Source of the DNA: Sphingobium sp. MI1205
Lineage (GTDB): Bacteria; Pseudomonadota; Alphaproteobacteria; Sphingomonadales; Sphingomonadaceae
Reading direction: 5' to 3'
DNA length: 64,000 nucleotides
Assembly: GCF_001563285.1 (NCBI RefSeq)
Contig: NZ_CP005188.1
Location: 1,121,501 to 1,185,500, forward strand
Under the pieces are notes generated by a model that searched no databases, was not told the origin of the DNA, and was given only the letters and a program-made list of their open reading frames with translations. Position numbers and translations under genes: made by a program. Numbering within the stretch: the first letter of the stretch is position 1; each line of letters begins with the position of its first letter. Positions 8,432 to 11,179 of this stretch are shown one piece after another.

Positions 8432-9166
8432 ATGGAAAATGACGAACTGACCGTCGCTCTGGGCGGCAATGTGAAGTGGCGCTTCCCCTCGGTGCATGCC
8501 GAAGGGATAAAATTTGGCCTGATTTCAGCTGCGATTACGGCCGTGCTATTCTTGGTCGGCTGGGAAATTCCCGGCTGGTTGATGGTCATGGTGACGATTT
8601 GGGTTTTCGCCTTCTTCCGCGATCCAGTACGCGCCGTGCCGCAAGATGAGCGCGCGATAGTGGCGCCCGCCGATGGTCTCGTTACGCTGATCCAGCGAGT
8701 GCCGCCGCCGCGGGAAATGGCGGGAGTGGATGGGCTGGGCGATCAACCCATGATCCGCGTGTCCATTTTCATGAGCGTGTTCGATGTTCATATCAACCGC
8801 ACGCCAATTGGCGGGACGGTAAAATCCGTCGTCTATATTTCCGGCAAGTTCCTGAACGCTGACCTGGATAAGGCGAGCGAGGATAATGAGCGGCAGCATA
8901 TTCTGGTTGAGCGGCATGATGGCCTTCGGATCGGCTTTACCCAGATCGCCGGCTTGGTCGCGCGGCGGATCGTGCCCTTTGTGAAACCGGGCGACATGAT
9001 CGCGGCAGGGCAACGCATCGGCCTGATCCGCTTCGGTAGCCGCGTGGACGTCTATCTGCCAGCCGGGACTGCGCCGCGCGTGGTGCTGGGCCAACGGACC
9101 GTCGCGGGAGAAACCATTCTGGGCCAGATCGGCGACATGCGGGTCATTTCAGGTATCCAGCAATGA
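8432..9166 (+). CDS. psd: Phosphatidylserine decarboxylase proenzyme
   Basis: Makes phosphatidylethanolamine from phosphatidylserine at the inner membrane. The protein is of the short (about 220-245 aa) family with a hydrophobic segment near residues 28-58, the NRTPIGG motif, and a C-terminal IRFGSRVDV. The Gly-Ser pair in that last motif is the self-cleavage site that makes the pyruvoyl group from Ser (LGST in other families). I chose ATG 8432; an in-frame ATG at 8405 would add nine residues. The stop overlaps the pssA ATG by 4 nt (ATGA), so the pair is translationally coupled. Confidence 0.92.
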
Positions 9167-9939
9167 GGCAGCGACGCACCATCCCGCGAGGGCTTCGCCG
9201 GGGCATTACGTTGCGCATGGTCGCCCCCAATGCCGTGACGGCGATGGCGCTCTGCTTTGGTCTGACAGGTGTACGCTACGGCATATCCGGCGAGTGGGAG
9301 CGGGCAGTGTTGTCCATCCTGATCGCGGGTGTGCTGGATGGATTGGATGGTCGAATCGCCCGCTTGTTGCGCGGGGAAAGCCGATTTGGCGCGGAGTTGG
9401 ACTCGCTGTCCGATTCGATCGCATTCGGGGTGGCGCCTGCACTTACCCTTTATCTCTGGTCGCTGCATGCGATGCCGAAGTTCGGCTGGATCTTCGCGCT
9501 CGCTCATGCCCTGTCATGTGCGTTGCGGCTGGCGCGGTTCAATGCCAATATCGATGCGGATGAGCAGCCGCACAAATCGGCCGGTTTTCTGACCGGCGTG
9601 CCCGCTCCGGCAGGGGCAGGGCTGGCCTTTGTGCCGCTTTACCTGTGGCTGGTGACGGGGCAGGAAATATTCCGAGCCTGGTATGTCGTAGCGCCATGGA
9701 CTGCCTTTACGGCGTTCTTGATGATATCCAATATTGCGACTTATAGCTGGTCGGCGCTTCGGCTACGCAAGCGGATCCGGCTGGAAGCAATCGCCGTGGC
9801 GGGCCTGCTGGGCGCTCTGCTCATTACAGATCCCTGGCTCACGCTGCTGTGCATCTGCGTCATCTATCTAGTGACTATTCCGTTCGGTATGATGTCCTAC
9901 GCGAAAGTGCGCCGTCAGCAGGCGGCGGATAGCGCATAA
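9163..9939 (+). CDS. pssA: CDP-diacylglycerol-serine O-phosphatidyltransferase
   Basis: Joins serine to CDP-diacylglycerol to give phosphatidylserine, the substrate of the psd product just upstream. It is a 258-residue multispanning membrane protein with the CDP-alcohol phosphotransferase signature complete: DGRIAR, eight residues, then GAELDSLSD, which positions the metal-binding Asp residues. The 4-nt overlap with psd shows one operon for the phosphatidylethanolamine branch. It converges on a small membrane-protein gene with only 7 nt between the stops, without an obvious terminator hairpin. Confidence 0.94.
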
Positions 9940-9946
9940 TCAGTGC

Positions 9947-10186
9947 TCAAGCGACGAGAATGCCGCTAGCTATCGGCCGGGCTACAGCGCCGCGACTCGG
10001 TTCCGCCCGGCGGCGGCTGATCCGCAGGCGATATATCGGCGGCTCGTGCGGTATCGGTTCAAATGCCAGCGCGGCAATCATCTTGTCGCGATAGAGCGCG
10101 AGCATGCTCAGGATCGTGCTAGCGGCAAGCAAAAACGACACGAGGAAAACAGTAGCTGCAACAAGGGTGAACATGAGGTCGCTCAC
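9947..10186 (-). CDS. Small single-pass membrane protein with a LexA-type promoter; function unknown
   Basis: A 79-residue protein that I do not recognise by family. It has one long hydrophobic segment at about residues 5-31 and then a basic, proline-containing tail (YRDKM, IPHEPPIY, LRISRRR). The start is a GTG at 10186; an in-frame ATG at 10174 would give 75 residues. Upstream on the same strand is a sigma70-like promoter whose -10 is covered by a GTTC-N7-GTTC site, the alphaproteobacterial LexA box. That architecture is what one expects for an SOS-induced small membrane protein such as the Caulobacter division inhibitors SidA and DidA. Function is inference only; homology to those proteins is not visible. 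Confidence 0.62.
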   Translation of the reverse strand: MSDLMFTLVAATVFLVSFLLAASTILSMLALYRDKMIAALAFEPIPHEPPIYRLRISRRRAEPSRGAVARPIASGILVA

Positions 10187-10256
10187 TTTCTGTGCTAGGG
10201 AACCGATGTCCCATCCTTGGGCAGCAAACCGGCTGAACTGCCTGTTTGTTCCCCAT

Positions 10257-10271
10257 GTTCTCTATATGTTC
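10257..10271 (-). promoter_or_regulatory. Candidate LexA (SOS) box
   Basis: GTTC-TCTATAT-GTTC exactly fits the alphaproteobacterial LexA consensus GTTC-N7-GTTC, with the AT-rich spacer typical of real sites. A third GTTC half-site lies at 10248-10251. Eight fixed bases would occur about twice by chance in a window of this size, but this one overlaps the -10 of a predicted promoter 71 bp upstream of the small membrane-protein gene. Confidence 0.55.
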
Positions 10272-10291
10272 TAATGCCTAGCCTAAGTCAA
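10263..10291 (-). promoter_or_regulatory. Predicted sigma70 promoter of the small membrane-protein gene
   Basis: On the minus strand TTGACT (10291-10286, one mismatch to TTGACA) is followed by 17 nt and then CATATA (10268-10263), or TATAGA with a 19-nt spacer. The LexA-type box lies across this -10, as expected for an operator that blocks RNA polymerase. The predicted transcript would have a leader of about 70 nt. Confidence 0.45.
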
Positions 10292-10295
10292 CCCC

Positions 10296-10324
10296 TTGCA
10301 TCCTTGCCCGGGTCGGGCTAAGGG
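10296..10324 (+). promoter_or_regulatory. Possible promoter of rpsB-tsf
   Basis: TTGCAT at 10296-10301, a 17-nt spacer, then TAAGGG at 10319-10324. The -10 is poor, so this is only a candidate. It lies about 95 nt before the rpsB start in the 234-bp divergent region, leaving a leader long enough for S2 autoregulation, but I could not make out a defined leader structure. Confidence 0.25.
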
Positions 10325-10420
10325 CCGCGCCATTCCACATGGGAATCGCACATATCCGGTGCTGTTGCGCTCGCGCTTAGTTCCTGATTCCCAGAGGCAT
10401 TAACCGGAAGGAGAAAGACC

Positions 10421-11179
10421 ATGGCGGCTCCTGTCGTCACCATGCACCAATTGATCGAGGCTGGCGCCCACTTCGGCCACCAGACCCACCGCTGGAACCC
10501 GCGCATGAAGCCGTACATCTTCGGCGATCGCAACGGCATCCACATCCTTGACCTGTCCCAGACCGTGCCGCTGTTTGGCCGTGCGCTCGACTTCGTGTCG
10601 GCGACCGTCGCCGCCGGCGGCAAGGTGCTGTTCGTCGGCACCAAGCGCCAGGCGCAGGATCCGATCGCTGAAGCTGCTCGCAAGTCGGGCCAGCACTTCG
10701 TCAACCATCGCTGGCTGGGCGGCATGCTCACCAACTGGAAGACCATCTCGGGCTCGATCAAGCGCCTGAAGACGCTTGAGGAAAAGCTGTCGGGTGACAC
10801 CCACGGCTTCACCAAGAAGGAAGTTCTTCAGATGACCCGCGAGCGCGAAAAACTTGAGCTTTCGCTGGGCGGCATCCGCGACATGAACGGCATCCCCGAT
10901 GTCATGTTCGTGATCGATGCCAACAAGGAAGAATTGGCGATCAAGGAAGCCAACACACTGGGTATTCCGGTTGTTGCGATTCTCGATTCGAACGTCTCGC
11001 CTGACGGCATCGCTTTCCCGGTCCCGGCGAATGACGACGCCAGCCGCGCGATCCGCCTCTATTGCGACGCCGTCGCCGCAGCCGCCACGAAGGGCAACCG
11101 TGGTGCGCAGCAGGCTTCTGGCGTTGACCTTGGCGCTCTGGACGAGCCCGAGGTTGAAGAGGTCGTCGCGCAGGCCTGA
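10421..11179 (+). CDS. rpsB: 30S ribosomal protein S2
   Basis: A 252-residue S2 protein. It begins [20 protein letters not shown] and contains the signature [11 protein letters not shown] and the [13 protein letters not shown] segment. An AGGAG Shine-Dalgarno (GGAAGGAGAAAGACC) precedes the ATG. The C-terminal tail is acidic ([11 protein letters not shown]) as in other alphaproteobacteria. It heads the rpsB-tsf pair; a 10-bp hairpin sits between the two genes. Confidence 0.98.

Follow-up and report, generated by a model that had tools for sequence, protein, structure and literature searches.

A LexA-type operator conserved ahead of a small membrane-protein gene beside rpsB in Sphingomonadaceae marks a candidate SOS division inhibitor

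Does the small gene that lies back to back with rpsB in Sphingobium sp. MI1205 belong to the SOS response, and what might its product do? We addressed this question in a 64-kb stretch of the genome (hereafter, the window), in which a first-pass annotation had noted a LexA-type box over the promoter of a small membrane-protein gene and had suggested an SOS-induced inhibitor of cell division. The motif GTTCN7GTTC is that of Caulobacter LexA, as described in the accessible part of PMC12700426. The features of the locus, in window coordinates, are as follows.

10257–10271, minus strand: LexA-type operator GAACATATAGAGAAC (plus strand GTTCTCTATATGTTC), from motif match and conservation in relatives
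10286–10291, minus strand: −35 element TTGACT of the small gene; TTGAC is invariant in 30/30 aligned loci
10263–10268, minus strand: −10 element CATATA, within the operator, spacer 17 bp, from sequence position
10248–10251, minus strand: third GAAC half-site (plus strand GTTC), 5 bp past the operator; GGAAC in 30 aligned genus loci
9947–10174, minus strand: gene for a small membrane protein with a single pass, 75 aa when read from the ATG at 10174, based on the conserved start and an AlphaFold2 helix at residues 2–37
9947–9964, minus strand: 3′ end of the small gene, ...GILVA and stop, a possible degron; the translation ends in LVA, not AA (family consensus PLRAAA)
9163–9939, plus strand: pssA-type phosphatidylserine synthase gene, convergent neighbour and synteny anchor (TIGR00473, 95.2 bits, below the curated cut-off of 107)
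10421–11179, plus strand: rpsB, 30S ribosomal protein S2, divergent neighbour and synteny anchor (TIGR01011, 317.6 bits, over the cut-off)

Both the box and the TTGACT-17-CATATA promoter that it overlaps were found exactly where the first-pass annotation had put them. The annotation had expected about two chance boxes per 64 kb; the window contains three exact matches to GTTC-N7-GTTC against 1.58 expected from shuffling, and at least three occurred in 17 of 100 shuffles, so that the window taken alone proves nothing. Across the whole genome the excess was modest, with 130 exact boxes against 85 for the reversed pattern. The significance of the operator therefore comes from its conservation across relatives and not from the window count. 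When we aligned the upstream regions of 30 loci from the genus of the window, its own locus included, the exact box was present in all of them; TTGAC, GAACATA and the second GAAC were invariant, and the third half-site followed as GGAAC a few bases further on. On this conservation we rejected a chance match as the origin of the box in the window.

The 79-aa open reading frame that had been annotated on the minus strand at 9947–10186 exists, but its GTG start at 10186 was not borne out. At that position most other loci of the genus lack an in-frame start and some carry a stop, whereas the ATG at 10174 is common to all 30 aligned loci; the gene therefore most likely spans 9947–10174 and encodes 75 aa. 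AlphaFold2 predicted a single helix over residues 2–37 (mean pLDDT of 80–98 over the first four ten-residue blocks) followed by a tail at low confidence, which supports the earlier proposal of a membrane protein with one transmembrane helix. No Pfam, NCBIfam or PHROG family matched the small protein above its cut-off: a PHROGs search with the window protein returned no match, an NCBIfam search with 25 family proteins gave a single weak match (E 0.13), and a Pfam COX8 match to the window protein was rejected, as its score of 15.3 bits fell short of the cut-off (24) and it spanned the helix only. Between the window and genome G003 the small protein is 76% identical, versus 98% for pssA and 99% for rpsB; judged by such comparisons, the core of the small protein is drifting fast.

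We then extended the search to the family, order and class. A tblastn search detected relatives in 33 of the 37 genus genomes, one of them the source genome, and in none of 24 genomes from other families of the order. The box was present in 40 of 40 titled relative loci, a set that overlaps with these genomes. Profile A1 (25 rows) matched 13 of 298 family genomes, including genera g97 and g110 with boxes; profile A2 (15 rows) matched 73 of 397 family genomes in 27 of 96 genera, and every match was read; profile A3 (39 rows) matched 52 of 196 order genomes and 10 of 289 class genomes. Seven of these ten came from other families (L186–L192); on inspection none was a convincing homologue and none had an exact box, so the 289 class genomes yielded no convincing relative outside Sphingomonadaceae. 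Among 15 members that were new with A3 and whose loci were taken up, 14 had an exact box, and 20 further fetched stretches comprised 13 with an exact box, two with a one-mismatch box and five non-members. A plasmid search found no homologues.

In total, we identified 149 members in 47 genera of Sphingomonadaceae, of which 144 carry an exact GAAC/GTTC-N7 box upstream and five a one-mismatch box (G392, G061, G447, G203 and G083), against about 1.3 exact boxes expected by chance in 149 upstream stretches. A script that scanned from 260 bp ahead of the called reading frame to 60 bp into it found 143 of the exact boxes (140 in gene orientation, three opposite); the remaining one, in G088, was taken from the rpsB-anchored reading described below, its reading frame having been called with too early a start. 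The first-pass annotation had proposed to ask whether orthologues keep the box, and they do, including those whose identity to the protein of the window is as low as about 20–30%. This strongly supports its claim of a LexA/SOS operator.

These counts take one member per genome and thus leave out L206, a member-like second copy in G128 with a one-mismatch box. Also left out were the two extra copies in the window's genome (L072 and L073), the weak matches G146:C2, G401, G518:C4:443333 and G255:C2:246737, and, from the box count, the genus matches G018 and G020. As other reading frames or proteins we dropped L131, L141, L142, L146, L149, L150, L151 and L152, together with L193, L195, L203, L210 (the same place as L195), L211, L213, L214 and the class-level loci L186–L192; none of the rows dropped as non-members had an exact box in the 260 bp upstream.

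In 131 members, TTGAC is found no more than 32 bp ahead of the box. From the start of TTGAC to the first half-site the distance is 20 bp in 38 of 39 scored members of the window's genus, and 9–12 bp in 75 of 92 outside it; this difference amounts to a slide of the operator by about one helical turn, and by eye the operator still meets the −10 element in both spacings. The fetched stretches of 126 profile-found members contained both pssA and rpsB in 102 cases, pssA only in 14 and neither in 10. All of the last group belong to genera g90 and g108 and keep the box. In each of the 102 cases pssA and rpsB point in the same direction, and the small gene sits in the gap of over 150 bp between them. 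Two exact tandem boxes, mostly 18–25 bp apart, were observed upstream in genera g96, g98, g63, g36 and g24 (e.g., L100, L101, L135, L201 and L207).

The boxes were visible when membership in the set of 149 was decided by eye, so that a sample anchored on rpsB is the fairer test. We took one genome from each of 30 genera of the family, the source genome among them, located rpsB while ignoring the protein, and read the other 29, judging gene presence by eye. A small hydrophobic reading frame facing away from rpsB was found in 22 genera, 20 with an exact box and two with a one-mismatch box. In six genera both the gene and an exact box were missing at this place, and one was undecidable at a contig edge. 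Next to rpsB in these six we did not find pssA either; the neighbourhood there thus differs, and the small gene may lie elsewhere. In six of 28 decidable genera, then, the gene is not beside rpsB and may have been lost or be located elsewhere. In other families, for which 24 genomes were tried, an exact box was present in none of 22 rpsB loci over the 900 bp upstream (less in two of them). The same anchor recovered such a reading frame beside rpsB in five genomes of the window's genus that earlier searches had missed, three with an exact and two with a one-mismatch box. A hydrophobic reading frame in L273 was judged not to be a member.

SOS genes of the same genome also carry boxes of this type. 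The lexA gene at C1:2205819–2206481 (TIGR00498, 176 bits, over the cut-off of 110.95) has the box GTTCTCCATCCGTTC at 2205783–2205797, just ahead of the matched stretch. Exact boxes lie 24 bp ahead of recA and of a PA0069-type radical SAM gene, and just ahead of the likely ATG of uvrA and rmuC, inside their longest reading frames. A probable imuA (G000:C1:3039729) is preceded at 7 bp by a 15-mer identical to that of the window; it scored 51 bits against a cut-off of 150, and a Pfam scan of this candidate gave no match. We did not count pdeM (TIGR04123) as a target, because the box lies over codons 2–6 of its reading frame. These cases come from 20 inspected stretches, mostly around boxes picked for AT-rich centres, out of the 130 boxes. 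From the comparison alone, SOS control of the small gene by LexA, which we deduce from the operator, is almost certain.

Further boxes were noted during this inspection. The one ahead of the PA0069-family radical SAM gene reads GTTCTCTTTATGTTC (G000:C1:1669806, L042). The box GTTCTCCATATGTTC at G000:C1:304427–304441 (L039) is one base off that of the window and has no obvious SOS gene adjoining. The box GTTCATGAAATGTTC at G000:C1:597972 (L051) lies 24 bp ahead of an opposite reading frame of 123 aa and 274 bp ahead of a reading frame for a LexA-like S24 peptidase, which is perhaps a second regulator linked to SOS.

The family members share a simple design. Their median length is 75 residues, with a median of three residues before the helix; a hydrophobic segment scoring at least 1.6 is present in 146 of 149 members and a second one in none. 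The tail is basic (mean charge +5.9; positive in 146 of 149). One N-terminal helix followed by a basic tail is therefore predicted for nearly all members. On the positive-inside rule, the charge of the tail places it in the cytoplasm, and a single-pass topology with the C-terminus inside is very probable.

Unlike the drifting core, the C-terminus is conserved. Its last residue is Ala in 145 of 149 members and the last two are Ala-Ala in 131, with the consensus P-L-R-A-A-A; the exceptions to a final Ala are G444, G517, G031 (the genus genome found via rpsB) and G068. Across 148 members, Ala occupies position −1 in 98%, versus 15% at positions −24 to −5. As a control, we used 48 non-overlapping reading frames of at least 150 aa in the window, called mechanically so that some may not be genes; seven end in Ala and none in Ala-Ala. 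The window protein, with LVA, stands outside the Ala-Ala majority. The tmRNA (ssrA) tag of the same genome is ANDNEALALAA and ends in LAA. In Caulobacter CtrA, Ala-Ala ends are ClpXP signals. The ssrA tag itself is a C-degron read mainly by ClpXP, according to the excerpted text of PMC8138137. Read against these patterns, the end of the small protein is probably a degron. A periplasmic reader of the Tsp/CtpA type would fit the same C-terminus if the topology were reversed, but the basic tail favours the cytoplasm.

Relatives without this ending occur outside the rpsB locus. The window's genome holds two further copies (C1:3020551 and C1:2417703), with no box within about 400 bp upstream of either. 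The island that holds one of them also encodes a serine recombinase, a C5 methylase and a beta clamp; the other copy, presumably mobile as well, follows a similar gene and has HIRAN and VWA proteins nearby. Relatives were also found on five contigs (L316–L320) whose viral status is taken from the IMG/VR collection; two are near-identical over the stretch read, and two match over about 20 residues only. The helix and the core Y-R-D/H-K-M-x-A-A-L are kept in the island and viral forms, though less well in the second copy from the window's genome. None of these forms has the AA end, which is thus not needed for whatever those copies do; L318 has one final Ala. In several of L316–L320 and of L274 and L275, the last two from the window's genome, a gene of about 150 aa, related between loci, precedes the small gene. 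At three of the IMG/VR loci a GAAC-N7-GAAC box stands 587 bp upstream, before that preceding gene. A search of annotated phage records with one island copy gave only a 32% match (E 0.5), which was set aside.

What might such a protein do? Unrelated small membrane proteins fill the role of division inhibitor in other bacteria; they have little in common beyond size and membrane location, and their parts were found by experiment (PMC6051672, in the text available). One close parallel is SidA of Caulobacter crescentus, an inner-membrane protein of 29 aa likewise from an alphaproteobacterium and controlled by LexA through GTTCN7GTTC, through which lexA mutants filament (PMC4211646 and PMC12700426, as excerpted); the sphingomonad protein differs in its length of about 75 aa, its basic tail and its mostly Ala-Ala C-terminus. 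DidA, also from Caulobacter, is alike in size (71 aa) and in its single predicted helix and binds FtsN, but it is DriD-controlled and SOS-independent, whereas the sphingomonad gene has a LexA-type operator; SidA and DidA are described as acting on FtsW/FtsN (excerpts of PMC4211646). YneA of Bacillus subtilis is likewise LexA-repressed with one N-terminal helix, targets FtsW and is degraded by proteases for recovery, but it carries an extracellular LysM domain with most of the protein outside, unlike the basic, predicted cytoplasmic tail seen here (PMC6051672 and PMC13396833, in their available parts). SosA of Staphylococcus aureus, an SOS-induced division inhibitor, is comparable by its description in the consulted portion of PMC6851548. 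SulA of Escherichia coli is SOS-induced and removed by proteolysis (PMC6051672, same excerpt); it is a cytoplasmic FtsZ inhibitor, whereas the sphingomonad candidate is a predicted membrane protein. SulA (PF03846) had no match in the window's genome, while the E. coli control was positive.

A division role is made plausible by the likeness to SidA, DidA, YneA and SosA, by the ssrA-like C-terminus and by the tagless island and viral copies; that the protein is a division inhibitor we regard, by this analogy, as evenly balanced. We lean slightly towards the whole reading, in which a LexA-repressed SOS gene encodes a short-lived inner-membrane protein that may delay division. Without damage, LexA on the operator, covering or adjoining the −10 element, would block transcription. 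On damage, RecA-triggered cleavage of LexA would free the TTGAC promoter, and the protein of about 75 aa would be made. Its single helix would insert so that the N-terminus faces outwards and the basic, disordered tail stays in the cytoplasm. Its most probable task would be to delay division in the manner of SidA and YneA, with the helix and the juxtamembrane stretch (Y-R/H-D-K-M-x-A-A-L in Sphingobium) attaching to a membrane component of the divisome. The (P-L-R-)A-A-A end would make it a substrate of a protease that reads C-termini (ClpXP/ClpAP if cytoplasmic, the Tsp/CtpA type if periplasmic), and its turnover would let division resume once LexA is back.

Other readings of the locus must be weighed against this one. 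That the box serves rpsB, or is a chance or promoter-like sequence and not a LexA site of the small gene, would suit the near-chance count in the window, but it is scarcely credible given that the exact box is absent in all six genera without the gene beside rpsB, that exact boxes in the 149 upstream stretches so far exceed chance, and that the operator, when its distance from TTGAC shifts by about 10 bp between genera, still meets the −10 element by eye. A mobile-element protein (e.g., one related to superinfection or lysis), domesticated by the host and put under LexA, would account for the relatives on the five viral-collection contigs and the two further genomic copies, one of them in the serine-recombinase island. 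We consider this improbable: the host form occupies 47 genera, mostly at one locus, whereas the viral forms are few and shorter, and origin would not in any case settle present function.

TisB of E. coli is an SOS-induced small membrane protein whose task is other than division inhibition. A TisB-like toxin or dormancy factor, whose helix would lower the membrane potential and slow the cell with no divisome target, would share the small size, the one helix, the LexA control and the operator over the promoter, and a degron would limit its toxicity; since the juxtamembrane stretch and the long basic tail seem more than a pore-forming peptide needs, we hold this to be unlikely. An SOS-induced regulator of another membrane process, such as an adaptor for an envelope enzyme, a protease or phospholipid synthesis, is a fairly unlikely reading. 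It is favoured by pssA, which the fetched stretch included for 116 of 126 profile-found members, and by a basic tail suited to binding acidic lipids or proteins, but the small gene is convergent with pssA and not co-transcribed, and the 10 members of g90 and g108 keep the box with no pssA in the fetched stretch.

The reading that we prefer, a short-lived SOS inhibitor of division, can be taken further, though doubtfully. The sphingomonad checkpoint might be a fast-evolving, family-wide SOS membrane inhibitor with its own cytoplasmic, ssrA-mimicking tag, so that ClpXP would set recovery, unlike the extracellular proteases that act on YneA; tagless and presumably stable phage or island versions could then hold the host cell cycle. 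Among the matches listed in the open literature, mostly abstracts, and in excerpts of PMC1839093, we saw no account of the gene or of a sphingomonad LexA regulon, nor RNA-seq after DNA damage or LexA ChIP data from a sphingomonad. On the strength of sequence we propose this unannotated gene as a candidate that covers much of a bacterial family: its locus is mostly fixed, its operator is stereotyped, and its presumed destruct tag can be put to the test. If the proposal is true, recovery from the SOS checkpoint in alphaproteobacteria would be open to direct test. For fast-evolving genes of this kind, promoter, gene slot and C-terminal end offer a route of search besides the protein core.

On the other side of the intergenic region, the rpsB leader (10320–10420, plus strand) could form an H-type pseudoknot. 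Stem 1, here TGGGAATCG/TGATTCCCA, varies between genera yet remains complementary, and CCGGT could base-pair with an ACCGG next to the ribosome-binding site, in many cases at constant spacing. We scored 50 leaders, and one more lacked the motif; the spacing did not fit in most leaders of other families and in a few of Sphingomonadaceae (e.g., L250, L256, L264 and L270). An Rfam search over 9900–10480 gave no match at E up to 1. The element is perhaps an autoregulatory leader of S2.
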